Part shown: positions 3,590-28,898 of the stretch, one piece after another | Position numbering within the stretch: position 1 is the first letter of the stretch | How the letters are laid out: every line of letters begins with the position of its first letter | Origin: Nitrospirota bacterium | Lineage (GTDB): Bacteria > Nitrospirota > Nitrospiria > JACQCE01 | Assembly (NCBI GenBank): GCA_016201765.1 | Contig: JACQCE010000045.1 | Location: 1-32,350 of the forward strand | Reading direction: 5' to 3' | DNA: 32,350 nucleotides | Made by a program: the position numbers and the translations under genes | The notes under the pieces: model-generated | The model's database searches: none | The model's input: the letters and a program-made list of their open reading frames with translations, nothing else | What the model was told of the DNA's origin: nothing

Positions 3590-3876
3590 ATCTTTCGTCC
3601 CCCCAACACGGCCAGCGGCCAGACGAGCGTCAGCAGGAACCACCCGGTGCTTCCCGACCGGGGCGGTCCCGGTCGAATCATCCCCAACCCGCACCCTCCC
3701 CCGCTGCTTGCCGCAGGCTGCCCTCCGCCCCCGGCGCTCTGTGTGGTGGCCGCTTCGGCCGGTGACTGCGCCGAGCTGTTGCCCGCCGCATCGTACGCTT
3801 CGACCCGATAACTGTACGTGGTCCCCGCTGCCAACCCAGTATCGCTAAAGCTGGTGCCCGCAATGGTCGCCACCAG
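3568..3876 (-). pseudogene. Frameshifted C-terminal part of the beta-helix/Fn3 protein: half Fn3 domain and C-terminal tag
   Basis: This stretch continues the large protein to its right but in another frame. It encodes the second half of a fibronectin III domain (DGG-LVATIAG, then GLAAGTTYSYRVEAYDAAGNSS), a Gly/Ser-rich linker, the tag GGGCGLGMIRPG, a hydrophobic helix and GGRKIYN before the stop at 3568. The upstream frame breaks right after APTVPA, the first strand of this same Fn3 domain. Compared with the intact paralogous domain coded at about 5850-6100, roughly 30 codons from the first half are missing and the frame is lost. It overlaps the lipA 3' end. It could be a real deletion or a repeat collapse in assembly. 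Confidence 0.75.
3571..3702 (-). other. Putative C-terminal sorting tag 2 (GGGCGLGMIRPG, hydrophobic helix, GGRK)
   Basis: This second copy of the tag has its Cys codon at 3691-3693. It reads GGGCGLGMIRPG, a Pro/Ser linker, WFLLTLVWPLAVL and GGRKIYN, ending at the stop. It shares GGGCG, IRPG and GRK with tag 1 at 5687-5818, although the linker and helix differ, so the shared positions look selected. In the present sequence it is out of frame with the beta-helix protein it should terminate. Confidence 0.5.
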
Positions 3877-6800
3877 GCCGCCATCTGGCCGGCACGGTCG
3901 GCGCCTGGGTATCCGAGGCCGCGAATGTGGCGGCCGTACTACTCGAAGATTGGGCCGACTCATTTCCCGCCGCATCATAGGCGGTCACAGTATAGGTGTA
4001 GCTGGTCGATGCGGTCAGGCCCGTGTTCAGGTAACTAAGGATCGCGCTGGTCCCAATGGAGACGGTCGGCGTGCAGCTCGCGCCCGTGCAGCGGTAGATA
4101 CGATAGCCCGTTACACCCACATTATCAGTGGAGGCTGACCAGACCAGATCAATGCGAGAAGAGGAGACGGCCGTGGCCTGGAGGCCGCCTAGTATCGAAG
4201 GGGCCTGGGTGTCTGGGGCTGGCGCCGCCGCGCCGGTGCCGATGATTTCAGTGCCGGTGATGTATGCCCCCATGTTGACCGGGGCGCCGGAAGACAGCCC
4301 TCCCACCCGGCCGGCGTTGATTAAAGGAGAGCCGCTGGCCAGCTTAAATGCTTCTGGGGCCGGCGTGCCGGTAAGCGGGCCAACAAATTGGGGATCTAAC
4401 GTGAGCGCGTTCAGATCAAAACTTCGGAGTTGCCACTGCGAAAGCGTTTCCCATCCCGCCGATGTGATAAAACCCGCGGATGGAGATGCAGGGGCCTGAT
4501 AGTTGTTGTAGTCGGAGAGAAAATCAGCAGCCACGGGTGTGCCGTTATTCAGGCGGAATGAAATGTGGTTATAGTCCACAGGAGGCGAACCAAGACTGAC
4601 GATATTGTTATACAACCGTATCCCGGAAAGATTGGTGTACTCGATGATCCCTTTCAGCGCATTGACCACGTCATTATTGTAGACGGCGATATTGCCCTCA
4701 TTCGCCGGGTCCCCCAAATTCAAGTTTACGCCCGTGTCGGCATTGACGATAATGTTCTGCCGCACGATATTGTTTTGCACGGGACAACTGCCACAGCGCG
4801 TCGTGACAAAACCCTCAAAGAACACGGCAGGACCGTTCACATCGTGCAAGTAATTCAGTTCATGCACGTTCGAGACGCCGTTTTCTTTATCCAAAATTCC
4901 GGTGTTGACGTTGTAAATTTCATTATTGTGGATATGGGTGTTATCCGTGTCATACAGGACAATGCCCTCTGCATTGGCGGCTGCGCAGTCGGTATAGGAA
5001 ATATTTCGGATGACGTTGTTTCGGATAATGGTGCCGGAAGTCAATTGAACAAAAAGACCGGCATAGTTGCCGTTGCCACAGGCGGTGCCCCCTCCGGCCA
5101 GCGTGCTGGCGCCCTTGTCGATAATTAAGTTTTCAAAAATAGTGCCGATGACCTTTGCGCCCACAGAGCCATACACCTGGGCATTGTTCCAGGGCCCAAG
5201 CTGGAAGCCATCCCACACAATGTAGTCTCGTCCATCGGCAGTGATCACGGGCCTGTTTCCGCCTTGCGGATCTGAACCAGGGCGCGTAATCAGCGGGCGA
5301 TGCCGCGGCCCGCTGAGAGGGGTATACGCCCGGAACGCGATGGGAAGACTTACACTCCCTGAATTGACTGGGGTGAGCGCCGAGGTCACGGAGTATGTGC
5401 CGTTTTTGACCCACACCGTATCGCCGGCCATGATATCCACTCCCAGAGGACTGGCGGCCCGCTGCAACGTGCACCACGGCGCGGCCTCGCTGGTCCCAGG
5501 GTTTGAGTCATTGCAGGCGGGATGGTTTTGATCGATGTAGTAGGTGGCGGCCAACGCGGAGGGGCTCAGGGCAAAAACGACGCCGATCAATACCGACAAT
5601 CCCAAAAAACATGGGAACAGGAGTGATTCAGCCGGTTGCGGATGGCCCACCGTTGTGCTCGCCGAGCCCAGCGCGCTGGAGCGCAATTGACGCCTCAGTT
5701 TTCTGCCTATACTCAGCCCCAGCGGCCCCAGCAGTGCCAGCATCGTGAACACCGCCGTACCTCCAGATGAGGGCGGAGCACCCCCTCCCGGTCGAATCGT
5801 CCCACACCCTCCACCTCCAATACTCATCCCCCCACCGCTGCTCTGTGTTGTGGCCGCTGCGGAGGAACGTGGTGAAGAGTTTGCCGCGGCATCATACGCT
5901 TCCACCTGATAGCTGTAGGTTGTCCCCGCCGCCAGCCCGGTGTCCGTGTGGGTGGTGCCCGCGGGAGAGCCGACCAGCACGCCGTCACGGTAGACGCGGT
6001 AACCCGCCACTCCCACATTGTCCGTGGAGGCATTCCAACTCAGATTGATCTCGCTGGTCGACATCGCCGTGGCCGTCAGGTTCGCCGGCACGGTCGGCGC
6101 CTGGGCATCCGCCGGGGCGGCCGGGGTGGCAGCGGTGCTGCTCGTGGATTTCGCCGACTCGTTCCCCGCGGCGTCATACGCGGCTACGGCATAGGTGTAA
6201 CTTGTCGATGCCGTCAGGCCCGTGCTCTGAAAACTTGTCGGCGCGCTGGTTCCGATGGAGGCAGTCGGCGCGCAGGCCGCCCCGGTACACCGGTAGATCC
6301 GGTAACCGGCCACGCCCACGTCGTCGGTGGAGGCAGTCCACGAGAGGTTGATCTGCGTCGATGAAACCGGCGAGGCGCCCAGCCCCATCGGGACGGAGGG
6401 CGCCGTCGTGTCGGACGGTGGCGGCGTGACGGTTCCGATGATCGTGGGGGTGCCGCCGTTTTCAAAGAGCATATAGGTGTACTGCAACTCGCCCCGATTG
6501 TTGTACAGATAGAAATTGCCCGAGGAGGAATCGAATTTCGTATCGACAAAATGGCCCACGGTGGTATCCGATGTTTCGCGCTGGGTGGTGCTCCCATAAA
6601 TACCCTTGGTGCCGCGATTGAAAAAGTGTTTGGCGCGGTCGTAGAGGGCGTGATCGCCGGTCAGCTTGTATCCATACACGAGACTGTCAACCAGCGAGAT
6701 CGTATAGACAGGATCCCAAAAGGTAGCAGTGGTGGTGCCATTTGAATAATTGTGCCAGATCTGGCCGTTGACGATACCGAATTTGTTGCCGGTATACTGA

Positions 6801-8800
6801 AACGTCGGGTCCATGCCGTACTGATCCACAAAACGCGCCATGGCCACAAGGCGGTTCTTCAGCTCGACGTTGCCGGTCTGCAGATAGGCCCGATAAAATG
6901 CCTCGCTCAAAATCCCGATGTGAAAGGAGGGCACGATGCGCGCGCCGGCGGCATAGGCGCCCGGGGACAGATTGGCATCCGTGTAAAAGTCTCCCGCGAA
7001 ATACATGCCCCGCGCGTCCCAATCGAGCGATTGCAGCCAGAGGGTGATCAACCGGTCCCGCAGCGCAATCCACCGGGCTTTGCCGGTCGCCTCGACCAGA
7101 CGGGTCGCCAGCAGCAAATGGCGCGCGCCCTGGCGGATGCCGTAATAGGCGAACCGGCTCGGGCTGTGCGTTGCGTAGTACGTTTCCAAATCGCCGCCGA
7201 GATTTTCCGCGGCCGCCAGGGACGCCGCGTCACCGGTCAGGTAATACCAATCGATCAGCCCCCACCCGTAGAGATGGTCTGAAATGAATCCGTCCCGGTC
7301 CGCGCAATAGGTCAGGCTGGGCGTCCCGACGCACTGTCGGTAATCGTCTCGAAAGTACCGGGCCCACGCGGTCGCGCGGTCGAGGTAGCCCTGCTGGCCC
7401 GTCCGGCGGTACATCATCACATACGTCCACAGATCGTCCCCTTCGGTGTCGCCATGAATATCGGGGTCGCGCACGGTGTAGGCGGCATCGCCGGTAAAAT
7501 GCGGCTCGACGCTTATCTGCCAGCTCCAGCTCCACGAACGGTAGGTGTTCCGCTCGTCTTCCAGCGAGGGTATGGGCACGCCGCCGGCCTTTTTATACCG
7601 GTACGCCCAGATCTCAAAACCGCTCGGGTCGCCGCCGGCCCCGCCGCCGCCCACACCGTCGATGCGGAGGAAGTAGGCCACGTTGTTAGCGGGATCATAC
7701 CCGAACACGCTCCAGCGCGCGAGCCACGAATTCGAGCTCGTCGGCGTAAGCGACGGCAGCGGCTGCAACGTAAACGTTCCCGATCCGACCCCGCCGTTGT
7801 TGGTCGTTTTTAACGTCCACACGCGCACAGCGCCACCGTTCGGCTCCGCTATTAGGACCACCTGGTTGAGCGAGTCATAGGTGAACGAATTGACGTCGCT
7901 GGCCATGCCGGGGGGTTTGGCCAGGGAGGTCCATTGGTTGCGCAACGCGTCATAGAGGAAGAAAGCGCTTTCTCCAGTCACAATGTTCCGGACGTGGACC
8001 AGGTGCAGTTTCGATGAGGCGTCGTAGGTGCCGTAGATTTGCGGCCACCCGCTGAACGGGAGACCGGCTAGCGCCCCATAGAAGCTCCAGGTGCCGTTCG
8101 AGCCGCTTTCATTGAACTGGAAGACGCCGGGGTTCCCCACAGATACGATTGCAAAGATTTTCTGCAGGTCGGGATCGTACGTCAGATACATGGTGTCGTG
8201 GTCCGGGCCATGGACGGCGCTTCCCGCCGGCGAGAGTTGCGTCCAGCTTTTCGTAACGGGGGAGAAGGCGAAGAGACCATTATTTGCCAGGCCTTGACCG
8301 CGCAGGAGCAGAAACCGGTTAAAACGGGGATCATACGTCATAGTTTGGTAGGTATGCTCCGGCCACGGACGTCCCAGGGGGGAGAGGGAACCGCTGGCAT
8401 CGCCGTTCTTGATCTGGCAGGGATCGGGGCTCGTCGCGCCGGCGCAGTAGGACGGCAGGGGTTCCGGGGTGTATTGGTCCTCCCAGACGTTGCCCCCCAT
8501 ATCGTACAGATCGACATCATTGCCCGAGTAGCTGGCGTGGCCGCCACCGAAGTAGAAAATTTTTCCTCCCCCAAAGACCGCGCCGCTGTACGACCGCTGG
8601 ACGGGATTCGCACTCGTGATGGGGGTAATTGTGGTAAAGGTGGGCGTCTGATAGCGTCCTGTCGGCGCGGGGCTCAGCTTCACCCACGAATTGTCGCCCA
8701 GCGTGGCCAACGCCGGATTGAGCCCGGCCGCGGCCTCACCATGAACCAGACAGACGATCCCCAGAGCGGCCAGACCATGCAGGATCCCATTGCAGCGCAT
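3845..8800 (-). CDS. Giant exported protein: two secreted Fn3 proteins fused in one frame
   Basis: The 1651-codon frame starts at ATG 8800, with GGAGG about 12 nt upstream. Residues 1-25 are a signal peptide. About 30-400 form a Kelch-like propeller (FYFGGGHASYSGNDV, repeated YDP/YD units). About 410-780 look like a helical alpha/alpha-barrel of the carbohydrate-active type. Two Fn3 domains lie at about 797-984, then a Gly-rich tag with Cys999, a hydrophobic helix and GRKLRRQ to 1038. A second signal peptide follows directly (about 1051-1086, ending ALA-ATYYID). A right-handed parallel beta-helix then runs to about 1525 (many NN-I/V-I repeats), with one Fn3 domain at 1528-1625 and a broken Fn3. 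The frame thus reads as two proteins without a stop between them. The role in binding or cleaving polysaccharide is inferred from folds; catalytic residues were not identified. Confidence 0.8.
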   Translation of the reverse strand: MRCNGILHGLAALGIVCLVHGEAAAGLNPALATLGDNSWVKLSPAPTGRYQTPTFTTITPITSANPVQRSYSGAVFGGGKIFYFGGGHASYSGNDVDLYDMGGNVWEDQYTPEPLPSYCAGATSPDPCQIKNGDASGSLSPLGRPWPEHTYQTMTYDPRFNRFLLLRGQGLANNGLFAFSPVTKSWTQLSPAGSAVHGPDHDTMYLTYDPDLQKIFAIVSVGNPGVFQFNESGSNGTWSFYGALAGLPFSGWPQIYGTYDASSKLHLVHVRNIVTGESAFFLYDALRNQWTSLAKPPGMASDVNSFTYDSLNQVVLIAEPNGGAVRVWTLKTTNNGGVGSGTFTLQPLPSLTPTSSNSWLARWSVFGYDPANNVAYFLRIDGVGGGGAGGDPSGFEIWAYRYKKAGGVPIPSLEDERNTYRSWSWSWQISVEPHFTGDAAYTVRDPDIHGDTEGDDLWTYVMMYRRTGQQGYLDRATAWARYFRDDYRQCVGTPSLTYCADRDGFISDHLYGWGLIDWYYLTGDAASLAAAENLGGDLETYYATHSPSRFAYYGIRQGARHLLLATRLVEATGKARWIALRDRLITLWLQSLDWDARGMYFAGDFYTDANLSPGAYAAGARIVPSFHIGILSEAFYRAYLQTGNVELKNRLVAMARFVDQYGMDPTFQYTGNKFGIVNGQIWHNYSNGTTTATFWDPVYTISLVDSLVYGYKLTGDHALYDRAKHFFNRGTKGIYGSTTQRETSDTTVGHFVDTKFDSSSGNFYLYNNRGELQYTYMLFENGGTPTIIGTVTPPPSDTTAPSVPMGLGASPVSSTQINLSWTASTDDVGVAGYRIYRCTGAACAPTASIGTSAPTSFQSTGLTASTSYTYAVAAYDAAGNESAKSTSSTAATPAAPADAQAPTVPANLTATAMSTSEINLSWNASTDNVGVAGYRVYRDGVLVGSPAGTTHTDTGLAAGTTYSYQVEAYDAAANSSPRSSAAATTQSSGGGMSIGGGGCGTIRPGGGAPPSSGGTAVFTMLALLGPLGLSIGRKLRRQLRSSALGSASTTVGHPQPAESLLFPCFLGLSVLIGVVFALSPSALAATYYIDQNHPACNDSNPGTSEAAPWCTLQRAASPLGVDIMAGDTVWVKNGTYSVTSALTPVNSGSVSLPIAFRAYTPLSGPRHRPLITRPGSDPQGGNRPVITADGRDYIVWDGFQLGPWNNAQVYGSVGAKVIGTIFENLIIDKGASTLAGGGTACGNGNYAGLFVQLTSGTIIRNNVIRNISYTDCAAANAEGIVLYDTDNTHIHNNEIYNVNTGILDKENGVSNVHELNYLHDVNGPAVFFEGFVTTRCGSCPVQNNIVRQNIIVNADTGVNLNLGDPANEGNIAVYNNDVVNALKGIIEYTNLSGIRLYNNIVSLGSPPVDYNHISFRLNNGTPVAADFLSDYNNYQAPASPSAGFITSAGWETLSQWQLRSFDLNALTLDPQFVGPLTGTPAPEAFKLASGSPLINAGRVGGLSSGAPVNMGAYITGTEIIGTGAAAPAPDTQAPSILGGLQATAVSSSRIDLVWSASTDNVGVTGYRIYRCTGASCTPTVSIGTSAILSYLNTGLTASTSYTYTVTAYDAAGNESAQSSSSTAATFAASDTQAPTVPARWRPGGDHCGHQL
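5687..5818 (-). other. Putative C-terminal sorting tag 1 (GGGGCG-TIRPG, hydrophobic helix, GRKLRR)
   Basis: Residues 995-1038 of the long frame have the three-part layout of bacterial C-terminal sorting signals: a short motif with Cys999 (GGGGCGTIRPG), a hydrophobic stretch (VFTMLALLGPLGL), and a basic end (GRKLRRQ). The same order occurs at 3571-3702. The motif is not one I recognise among the named CTERM classes; it is nearest in style to Gly-Cys tags. Function is inferred from layout only. Confidence 0.55.
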
Positions 8801-9060: not shown

Positions 9061-9198
9061 GGTAGTGGGTCAGTTTGATGGATTCCACCGTGGCAAAAAT
9101 AGGGACACGTCCCCATTTCCTCGTGCGACGCACGGCACGCAACGAAATTGGGACGTGTCCCTATTTTTGAGCCGGTCGCGGTGAAACTGACCCACTCC
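9061..9198 (+). mobile_element. Palindromic MITE-like element, copy 1
   Basis: The ends AGTGGGTCAGTTT (9064-9076) and AAACTGACCCACT (9184-9196) are perfect inverted repeats. An inner pair of 19 bp at 9095-9113 and 9150-9168 is also perfect, containing GGGACACGTCCC. The element is flanked by the 9-bp direct repeat CCGCCGGGC (9052-9060 and 9199-9207), a typical target-site duplication. It has no coding capacity. It lies about 55 bp before the RND adaptor gene. Two more copies are at 19224 and 23697. Confidence 0.85.
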
Positions 9199-19223: not shown

Positions 19224-19361
19224 GGTAGTGGGTCAGTTTCACCGCGACCGGCTCACAAATAGGGACACGTCCCAATTTCGTTGCGTGCCGTGCGTTGCAC
19301 GAGGAAATTGGGACGTGTCCCCATTTTTGCCACGTGGAATCCATCAAACTGACCCACTACC
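19224..19361 (-). mobile_element. Palindromic MITE-like element, copy 2 (reverse orientation)
   Basis: GGTAGTGGGTCAGTTT (19224-19239) and AAACTGACCCACTACC (19346-19361) are perfect 16-bp inverted ends. The inside is the reverse complement of copy 1 with few changes, including the GGGACACGTCCC pair. The flanks show a direct repeat GTTGACA (19217-19223 and 19363-19369), or 9 bp with one mismatch. It fills the space between the divergent rplU and cstA genes. Confidence 0.85.
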
Positions 19362-23696: not shown

Positions 23697-23836
23697 GGTA
23701 GTGGGTCAGTTGAATGGATTCACCCGTGGCAAAAATGGGGACACGTCCCAATTTCGTTGAGCGCCGCGCGCCGCATGAGGAAATGGGGACGTGTCCCTAT
23801 TTTTGAGATAGGTCACGGTGAAACTGACCTGCTACC
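23697..23836 (+). mobile_element. Palindromic MITE-like element, copy 3
   Basis: It starts GGTAGTGGGTCAGTT and ends AAACTGACCTGCTACC, in the same orientation as copy 1, and contains the GGGACACGTCCC / GGGACGTGTCCC pair. It is flanked by a perfect 8-bp direct repeat TGATTTCA (23689-23696 and 23837-23844). The left copy of that repeat holds the stop codon of the preceding gene. The centre is the most diverged part against the other copies. Confidence 0.85.
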
Positions 23837-24181: not shown

Positions 24182-24227
24182 CACTCCCCCTTGCGGCTCA
24201 CCCCCGCAAGGGGGAGTGTTGTTTTTG
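24182..24227 (+). terminator. Strong rho-independent terminator
   Basis: The 15-bp perfect stem CACTCCCCCTTGCGG (24182-24196) and its complement (24204-24218) have a 7-nt loop and are followed by TTGTTTTTG. It begins 27 bp after the DUF1059 stop and isolates that gene from the cytochrome gene. Confidence 0.92.
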
Positions 24228-24284: not shown

Positions 24285-25412
24285 ATGCGGATGCGTGCGC
24301 AGCGTCTGAGCCCCTGGCGCCTCTGGCCGTGGTGGCTGGCCGTCGGCTGGTGTCTCTTTGCCGGCGGGCTGATCGAGCGCGCCGAGGCGGTGCTGGGCGA
24401 TGCCGTGCGCGGCCGGGCGATCTTCGAAAAAAACTGCGTGGCCTGCCACGGCATCGATGCCAAGGGCACGGGCCCTGCGGCCGCCACGCTGCCGGTCAAA
24501 CCGGCCAATCTCACCGATTGCCGCCGCACGGCGGAAGACGACGTGGAGATGCTTGAGAGCATCATCCACCACGGCGGCCCCTACGCCGGCCTGTCGTCCG
24601 TGATGCCGGCCTGGGATAAGACGCTCACCAGCGTGGAGATTGCCGACGTCGCGGCCTATGTGAAATCGCTCTGCGACGATGCCGACTGGGTGCCGGGCGA
24701 ATTGAGTTTTCCCCGTCCGTTGATCACGGGGAAGGCGATCCCGGAACAGGAGGTGGTGCTCGGCGGTCAGCTCATGAGGGCTGTCAGGAACGCGAACCCG
24801 AACGAACAGAGCATGACCTTCAGCGGCGCGGTCGAATATCGAATCAACGGCCTGACGGAGATCGAGCTGGAGGTGCCCGTTTCGGCGATCAACCTCGACC
24901 CCGGTCCTTCCACCGCCGGTCTGGGTGACGTGGCCGTCGCCCTCAAACGGGTCCTCTTCTTCAGTGTCGAGCATTTGACCATCGTGACGGCGGCGTTGGA
25001 GCTGGGATTGCCGACGGGGCGAAGCAGCCGGGGGTTGGGCGGAGGGCAGCTCGTCTGGGAACCCGGCCTGCGCGCCGGCTGGCGATGGAACGATGTGATT
25101 CTCCAGAGCGATCTCCGCCTCGAACTGCCGCAGCAGACGGCCAACACCGAGGCTGCGCTCCTCTACAATGTCGCATTGGGGTACGAGTTCGAGCCGGATC
25201 CCCGGTTGGAGCTCGTACCCATGGTGGAACTAAACACGGAGACCCTGCTGAACGGCGCGGACGGCGGCCGAACTCTTTCCGCCGTGCTGCCGCAATTGCG
25301 CCTCAAGTGGCTCGTCTGGAGCGCGGGCGCCGGCGTCCAGTTCCCCTTCACCCCCGTCAAGGATTTCGATCTCCGTGTGCTGTTTGATCTGACCTACGAG
25401 TACTCGCTCTGA
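24285..25412 (+). CDS. Monoheme cytochrome c fused to an outer-membrane-type beta-barrel
   Basis: This 375-residue exported protein has an N-terminal signal peptide (basic start, then WLAVGWCLFAGGL). A class I cytochrome c domain follows, with heme motif CVACH (C51, C54, H55), the GTGPAA loop and a likely axial Met107 (SSVMPAW). From about residue 155 to the end the sequence turns into alternating polar/hydrophobic strands with Gly-rich turns. It ends TYEYSL, as expected for a beta-barrel of roughly ten to twelve strands. The order heme domain then barrel recalls Cyc2-type outer-membrane cytochromes, although the heme domain is larger here and homology is not shown. The start ATG 24285 fits the promoter; an in-frame ATG at 24216 lies in the terminator. 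The electron partner is unknown. Confidence 0.75.
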   Translation: MRMRAQRLSPWRLWPWWLAVGWCLFAGGLIERAEAVLGDAVRGRAIFEKNCVACHGIDAKGTGPAAATLPVKPANLTDCRRTAEDDVEMLESIIHHGGPYAGLSSVMPAWDKTLTSVEIADVAAYVKSLCDDADWVPGELSFPRPLITGKAIPEQEVVLGGQLMRAVRNANPNEQSMTFSGAVEYRINGLTEIELEVPVSAINLDPGPSTAGLGDVAVALKRVLFFSVEHLTIVTAALELGLPTGRSSRGLGGGQLVWEPGLRAGWRWNDVILQSDLRLELPQQTANTEAALLYNVALGYEFEPDPRLELVPMVELNTETLLNGADGGRTLSAVLPQLRLKWLVWSAGAGVQFPFTPVKDFDLRVLFDLTYEYSL

Positions 25413-28747: not shown

Positions 28748-28894
28748 CAGTGACCAGTGACGAGTGATGAGTGAAGAGAGAAGCCCTCTTCCTGGCTCGT
28801 CACTTGTCACTTGTCACTCGTCACTTGTCACTCGTCACTCGTCACTCGTCACTCGTCACTTGTCACTCGTCACTTGTCACTCGTCACTCGTCAC
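28744..28894. repeat. Inverted heptamer arrays (GTGACGA units, then 14 TYGTCAC units)
   Basis: The right part, 28797-28894, is 14 perfect tandem heptamers of TCGTCAC or TTGTCAC. The left part, 28744-28777, is about five units of the complementary type (GTGACCA, GTGACGA, GTGATGA and so on). A spacer of about 19 bp separates them, so the RNA or single strand can fold back. It fills the whole gap between the two convergent transporter genes and starts at the stop of the permease gene. Confidence 0.9.
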
Positions 28895-28898
28895 TGCA

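Follow-up and report, generated by a model that had tools for sequence, protein, structure and literature searches.

In a 32,350-nucleotide stretch of DNA from a bacterium of the Nitrospiria (hereinafter the window), we identified a gene whose product, P0001, joins in a single chain a monoheme cytochrome c domain to what is predicted to be a closed, outer-membrane-type β-barrel, a plan that recalls the iron-oxidation protein Cyc2. A sequence-only reading of this DNA had proposed the Cyc2-like plan and had suggested that the protein might be a separate family with a similar solution. The plan stands in the structural model, and, with a profile-profile probability of only 1.3% against Cyc2, the best reading is indeed that P0001 belongs to a separate family of fused monoheme cytochrome c–outer-membrane barrel proteins built independently of Cyc2. 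The family appears to be new, as we found no report of a COG4313-cytochrome fusion in the open-licence literature, the fused cytochrome-barrel plan as such being already known from Cyc2 and its kin. The open reading frame begins with the ATG at 24285 and ends with the stop codon at 25410–25412, matching the extent of the gene exactly; the features to which we refer below are the following (all positions are those of the window):

24182–24218, plus strand: strong intrinsic-terminator-like hairpin (15-pair stem, then a T-run) in the gap between the DUF1059 gene and the P0001 gene
24285–25412, plus strand: gene for the fused cytochrome c–12-stranded barrel protein P0001 (375 aa; homologs have the same architecture)
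24285–24389, plus strand: probable Sec signal peptide, residues 1–35 (...FAGGLIERAEA), read by eye
24402–24677, plus strand: class I cytochrome c domain, residues 40–131 (Pfam; helical in the AlphaFold2 model)
24435–24449, plus strand: heme-binding motif CVACH, C51/C54/H55 (invariant in 17 of 17 homologs)
24519–24521, plus strand: Cys79, proposed disulfide partner of Cys130 (present in 16 of 17)
24603–24605, plus strand: Met107, proposed sixth heme ligand (invariant in 17 of 17)
24672–24674, plus strand: Cys130, proposed disulfide partner of Cys79 (from the homolog alignment)
24708–24752, plus strand: junction segment FPRPLITGKAIPEQE, residues 142–156 (conservation; profile match to standalone barrels)
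24750–25400, plus strand: predicted 12-stranded β-barrel domain, residues 156–372 (AlphaFold2, Foldseek, PF13557, strand amphipathy)
25011–25019, plus strand: PTG motif, P243-T244-G245 (typical of COG4313 channels and FapF)

Domain architecture of the fused protein

The N-terminus, read by eye, has the basic n-region, hydrophobic core and AEA cleavage motif of a signal peptide, as the sequence-only reading had recognized. It is followed by the single heme domain that was also anticipated there: P0001 has one CVACH motif (residues 51–55), and residues 40–126 are matched by the Pfam Cytochrome_CBB3 model (PF13442; 2.2e-11, with 44.4 bits where the cut-off is 27), with PF00034 likewise above its gathering score (1.2e-10). 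A helical PF13442/PF00034 domain, a CxxCH motif and a distal Met together identify it as a class I cytochrome c. None of the 17 homologs compared departs from these heme ligands, Met107 included, which had been singled out from the sequence as the likely ligand. A further pair of residues, absent from the earlier reading, is Cys79 and Cys130, kept in 16 of the 17 homologs; the one exception (L105) lacks both, and their joint loss suggests that the two cysteines form a disulfide within the cytochrome domain.

For the C-terminal region, AlphaFold2 supplied with a 17-row alignment (A9) predicted the cytochrome helices followed by 12 long strands (pLDDT 88.7, pTM 0.83), providing the strand count that the sequence-only reading had left to structure prediction. 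When this model was compared with solved structures using Foldseek, the amyloid secretion channel FapF was recovered first (5o68, E 1.1e-11, TM 0.66 by target length; PMC5557850), and the next matches, nearly all of them outer-membrane proteins, include KdgM, NanC and autotransporter barrels; a viral structure library yielded generic phage-borne barrels only. FapF differs from P0001 in possessing a coiled coil, a helical plug and a fap operon where P0001 has a cytochrome, and no fap genes occur among the neighbors of P0001. The predicted strands also alternate between lipid- and lumen-facing residues as expected of a barrel wall (mean difference 1.40 versus 0.62 ± 0.12 in shuffles); none of 20000 within-strand shuffles reaches the observed period-two amphipathy, which upholds the earlier description of amphipathic strands ending in TYEYSL. 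The chain terminates in ...FDLTYEYSL, and in most relatives the final residue is F or W.

These results bear on whether the C-terminal part might be a soluble β-rich domain, or the fusion an assembly artefact. AlphaFold2 run on the P0001 sequence alone gave an uninterpretable model (pLDDT 37), a point in favor of this alternative; against it stand the confident 12-stranded model obtained with 17 homologs, the solved matches to outer-membrane barrels, the aromatic C-terminus of most homologs and the repetition of the fusion in 19 genomes, and we regard this alternative as exceedingly improbable. The conservation of the one-chain architecture across phyla in particular argues that it is no artefact of assembly or annotation. 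Neither a soluble β-fold nor a known periplasmic enzyme, the two outcomes named by the sequence-only reading as counting against it, emerged from the tests.

The sole Pfam match in the region from residue ~142 to the end is to PF13557 (Phenol_MetA_deg), which corresponds to COG4313 (PMC9581022). For the P0001 barrel alone this match is weak, its 20.3 bits falling short of the cut-off of 22; two homologs, from G007 and G837, exceed the gathering score with 30.0 and 30.4 bits, and 9 of 13 family members match at E 0.01, so that the suggested comparison with MetA-type porins appears right for the barrel. In the solved COG4313 member Pput2725, the N-terminus reaches into the lumen of a 12-stranded barrel (PMC4493636). 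The PTG motif conserved in COG4313 and common to FapF (PMC6173800; the motif is also described in PMC4493636) is found in at least 13 of 17 aligned sequences of the fused family, the rest having PVG, PSG or PLE. P0001 thereby resembles the COG4313/PF13557 channels (Pput2725, TcpY, SphA) in its 12 predicted strands, the PTG motif, a conserved segment before strand 1 and, for the family rather than for P0001 alone, a Pfam match; unlike the known channels, which are without a cytochrome, it bears a heme domain ahead of the N-terminal segment.

That segment, the junction FPRPLITGKAIPEQE, with the pattern F-P-R-P-L-x-T-x-K-A-x-P-E, is among the best-conserved stretches of the family, T148, K150, A151 and E154 being invariant. 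Cytochrome-free barrels from the same class (L043–L045) and L104 align with the family through it (profile probability 99.5%). On sequence grounds we take the junction segment to be the counterpart of the N-terminal segment of these cytochrome-free barrels and, by analogy with Pput2725, probably also of the lumen-inserted COG4313 N-terminus. Because the alignment continues through the junction, the fusion is one in which a cytochrome was set directly before a complete COG4313-like barrel, its own N-terminal segment included. A check for a split cytochrome partner near the standalone barrels of family f12 found none.

Phyletic distribution and comparison with Cyc2

We recovered the same fusion from 19 genomes, comprising 7 Nitrospiria, 1 genome from a gammaproteobacterial class and 11 of another phylum. 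The Nitrospiria were sampled by whole-genome profile searches with the barrel over 270 genomes of the class, of which seven are carriers (G000, G007, G059, G189, G195, G202 and G222); in the other Nitrospirota classes sampled, the profile search gave no full-length match. The homolog from G837, in the class of a gammaproteobacterial MAG, is 28% identical, and the remaining 11 carriers lie in the phylum that holds Proteobacteria bacterium DTSAM18. The closest homolog, 53% identical over residues 34–374, is encoded on contig JAJDBU010000043.1 of the Nitrospirota MAG OFTM244, from the same class as the source genome, itself a 1.96-Mb assembly that is 86% complete. In the tree, a fully supported split separates the Nitrospiria sequences from the others; G934 calls for caution because of its long branch. 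Two copies (L078 in G189 and L080 in G222) have frameshifts or internal stops, which may be assembly errors or signs of decaying genes, and were excluded from the full-length alignments. Scans of genome contigs had a poor yield because their search patterns derived from the cytochrome: P0001 alone found no homolog and a two-sequence alignment only one true homolog. A tblastn search of plasmids returned ccoP matches only, none with a barrel.

The likeness to Cyc2 and Cyc572 is one of plan: in a chain of similar length, a signal peptide precedes one heme domain with a single CxxCH, and an outer-membrane barrel makes up the C-terminal part. P0001 indeed has the lone CxxCH, the N-terminal domain fused to a barrel and the length of at least 365 aa that are expected of Cyc2. 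The hallmarks of Cyc2 are an AxPxFAR[QK][TY] motif upstream of the CxxCH, a PxL downstream of it and a 16-stranded porin (PMC8406198). In contrast, PxFAR is absent from P0001 and all 17 homologs, P0001 has no PxL 4 residues past its CxxCH (CVACHGIDAKGTGP), and 12 strands are predicted in its family. Likewise, an hhalign comparison with ten Nitrospiria Cyc2 sequences gave a probability of 1.3%, with the CxxCH region alone aligned. The heme segment of Cyc2 is short, whereas that of P0001 is a full class I domain of ~95 residues, in which a Met ligand is accompanied by a proposed disulfide; thus, the earlier observations that the heme domain is larger and the barrel smaller than in Cyc2 both hold.

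It is hence very hard to maintain that P0001 is a divergent Cyc2 iron oxidase, a possibility to which we assign next to no probability: the order of parts, the single CxxCH and the 375-aa length are alike, and in G059 a true Cyc2 adjoins a homolog of P0001, but the missing motifs, the strand number and the failed profile-profile match led us to rule out homology. The common plan with different parts is most likely a case of convergence. We also considered co-occurrence with Cyc2 as functional evidence and dropped it, as strong Cyc2 matches are frequent in this class and our sample is small.

The MtrAB/MtoAB systems and the Geobacter Omb-Oma-Omc and Ext conduits likewise combine cytochromes with an outer-membrane barrel; they differ from P0001 in that separate proteins assemble into a complex, in which many hemes and a larger barrel allow conduction across the membrane. 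With one heme, 12 predicted strands and a single chain, P0001 falls outside the Mtr/Mto/Pcc type, in which a multiheme cytochrome lies inside a ~26-strand barrel.

Gene neighborhoods

In the window, the neighbors of the P0001 gene, with a DUF1059 gene upstream, a HAD hydrolase gene downstream and CstA, include no redox genes. In light of this and of the terminator-like hairpin at 24182–24218, the gene is probably its own, single-gene transcription unit. Scanning the window with Rfam and for tRNA genes returned no match. Elsewhere in the window we observed four near-copies of an element around ATGGGGACGTGTCCCNATTTT (9096–9116, 19307–19327, 23732–23752 and 23783–23803), where none is expected by chance; two of the four are just upstream of the DUF1059 gene, and similar encoded peptides (GRVPIF) occur in other contigs of the genome. 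The gap between an ABC permease gene and a solute-binding protein gene (28796–28895) holds ~14 copies of the 7-base repeat CTCGTCA, and the minus strand at 3845–8800 codes for a protein of 1651 aa that carries kelch and fibronectin type III repeats and seems to be frameshifted or cut short at its C-terminal end.

In other genomes, the fused gene has neighbors of a more suggestive kind. In four genomes of the phylum that accounts for the 11 further carriers, G967, G908, G1068 and G1076 (L122, L125, L126 and L127), a conserved gene for a pentaheme cytochrome abuts or overlaps its stop codon; the encoded proteins are of ~530 residues and 46–49% identical to the G967 copy. Their match to the NCBI ExtKL model (2e-12) is well below the model cut-off, and by this comparison they would be at most remote ExtKL relatives; in Geobacter, ExtKL is a pentaheme cytochrome of the periplasm that belongs to the ExtHIJKL outer-membrane conduit cluster (PMC6148476). 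At 7 of the 11 non-Nitrospirota loci there is no adjacent pentaheme gene, and no homolog of this partner was found in the source genome (86% complete) or in the other Nitrospiria tested. In G059 (L077, 10917–14040), three genes follow one another on one strand, namely cyc2 (14040–12652; AIPAFARKYDFACNVCH), a gene for a DUF2231 membrane protein (12454–12011) and the fused gene (12014–10917), the last two overlapping by 4 bp; this row is possibly a combined metal-oxidation operon. The source genome itself gave no Cyc2 match at 1e-6, its assembly being incomplete. In G195 the fused gene is surrounded by several cytochrome c genes and a di-heme (cytochrome c) peroxidase gene, and in G202 a VIT1-family gene lies 3′ of it.

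Two further loci are recorded here as side observations. In G007 (L009, 2655–3990; L082, 13967–15996), genes for ApbE-like, DUF3570 (2.5e-132) and thioredoxin-like proteins lie upstream of the fused homolog on the same strand, and the combination of ApbE and DUF3570 hints at an extracytoplasmic flavin system. On contig C72 of the source genome (L142, 7321–9636), a standalone barrel with weak similarity to that of P0001 (E 0.15) is followed by copC- and copD-like genes; barrels of this kind may be associated with copper handling.

Proposed function and its alternatives

We lean, if only modestly, towards the view that the P0001 family acts as an outer-membrane station for electron transfer or redox entry, Cyc2-like in plan. 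The Pfam-recognized cytochrome c, the predicted 12-stranded barrel, the invariant heme ligands and the recurrence of the fusion in 19 genomes speak for this, as do the pentaheme gene in four genomes, cyc2 and DUF2231 in G059 and the cytochrome genes in G195. On the other side of the ledger, the neighbors in the window are non-redox and a terminator-like hairpin sets the gene apart, the pentaheme partner is missing from the source genome and the Nitrospiria tested as well as from 7 of the 11 other loci, and one heme with a narrow, occluded COG4313 lumen (PMC4493636) means that a donor must diffuse in. From the heme and the gene contexts we infer that P0001 resides in the outer membrane and exchanges electrons with periplasmic cytochromes.

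After export, heme would be attached to C51 and C54, and H55 and Met107 would serve as its axial ligands. The C79–C130 disulfide probably staples the cytochrome domain, which would be stationed at the periplasmic mouth of the COG4313-type barrel, the N-terminal segment of which would fill the lumen. In COG4313 barrels the lumen is narrow (~10–12 Å), occluded and nearly closed by the barrel's own N-terminal segment (PMC4493636), too narrow for a ~95-residue cytochrome domain, and for this reason the periplasmic mouth is the most likely site of the heme domain. One heme is not enough to span the membrane; as has been argued for Cyc2, the donor would therefore need to be small and to reach the heme by diffusion. 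Such a redox partner, whether Fe2+, Mn2+ or an organic molecule of small size, would approach the heme on the barrel side, with the electron going to or coming from periplasmic cytochromes, in some genomes the co-encoded pentaheme cytochrome. Passage through the barrel is presumed in this scheme, and the favored direction would be that in which the donor is oxidized and electrons move inward. Possible, if speculative, donors are Fe(II), Mn(II) and organic shuttles of a kind that would fit a COG4313 channel; Fe(II) oxidation by the family is accordingly no more than a possibility.

The near-closure of COG4313 barrels by their own N-terminal segment (PMC4493636) also agrees with a simpler arrangement, in which the barrel merely anchors the cytochrome at the inner face of the outer membrane and nothing redox-active traverses it. 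The cytochrome, a standard class I domain whose gene-order partners are cytochromes of periplasmic type, would then serve periplasmic partners such as multiheme cytochromes or peroxidases. A pure anchor would have no need of the channel-shaping junction segment and PTG region, both of which are conserved, and the cyc2 gene next to it in G059 suggests a place at the cell surface; we consider this arrangement unlikely on balance, albeit worth serious attention.

The kinship of the barrel raises another alternative, that of a redox-coupled uptake channel. TcpY and SphA, of the same barrel family, are COG4313 channels implicated in chlorophenol and sphingosine uptake, respectively (PMC4493636, PMC9581022), and the PTG patch, a proposed lateral gate, is retained in P0001. 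The barrel would accordingly import a small hydrophobic or aromatic molecule, such as a phenolic, quinone or humic shuttle, and the heme would oxidize, reduce or gate it at the periplasmic exit. Yet no aromatic-catabolism genes were recognized beside the fused gene in the loci examined (most neighbors being judged by eye), COG4313 substrates are diverse, and the barrel of P0001 is divergent, as its sub-threshold PF13557 score attests, and we see only a slim chance that uptake is its role.

Returning to the electron-transfer station, we tentatively offer an evolutionary scenario that we regard as possible rather than probable: a COG4313 uptake channel, from a family whose known cargo is hydrophobic and aromatic, may have been turned into an electron port independently of Cyc2, its heme exchanging electrons with a small molecule or metal ion at the barrel mouth and relaying them to periplasmic cytochromes, and may have been put to use beside Cyc2 or ExtKL-like pentaheme cytochromes. 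If true, this would add one more class, and a widespread one, of single-heme proteins for redox entry at the outer membrane, with a spread that probably covers three phyla. P0001 is itself a test protein for possible electron entry in an uncultured Nitrospirota genome (86% complete) in which no Cyc2 was found. Cyc2 serves as a marker gene for iron oxidation, and Cyc2 models would miss an unrelated lineage built on the same plan. Such a lineage would also be independent evidence that one heme and one barrel make a workable link between the cell surface and the periplasmic electron chain.
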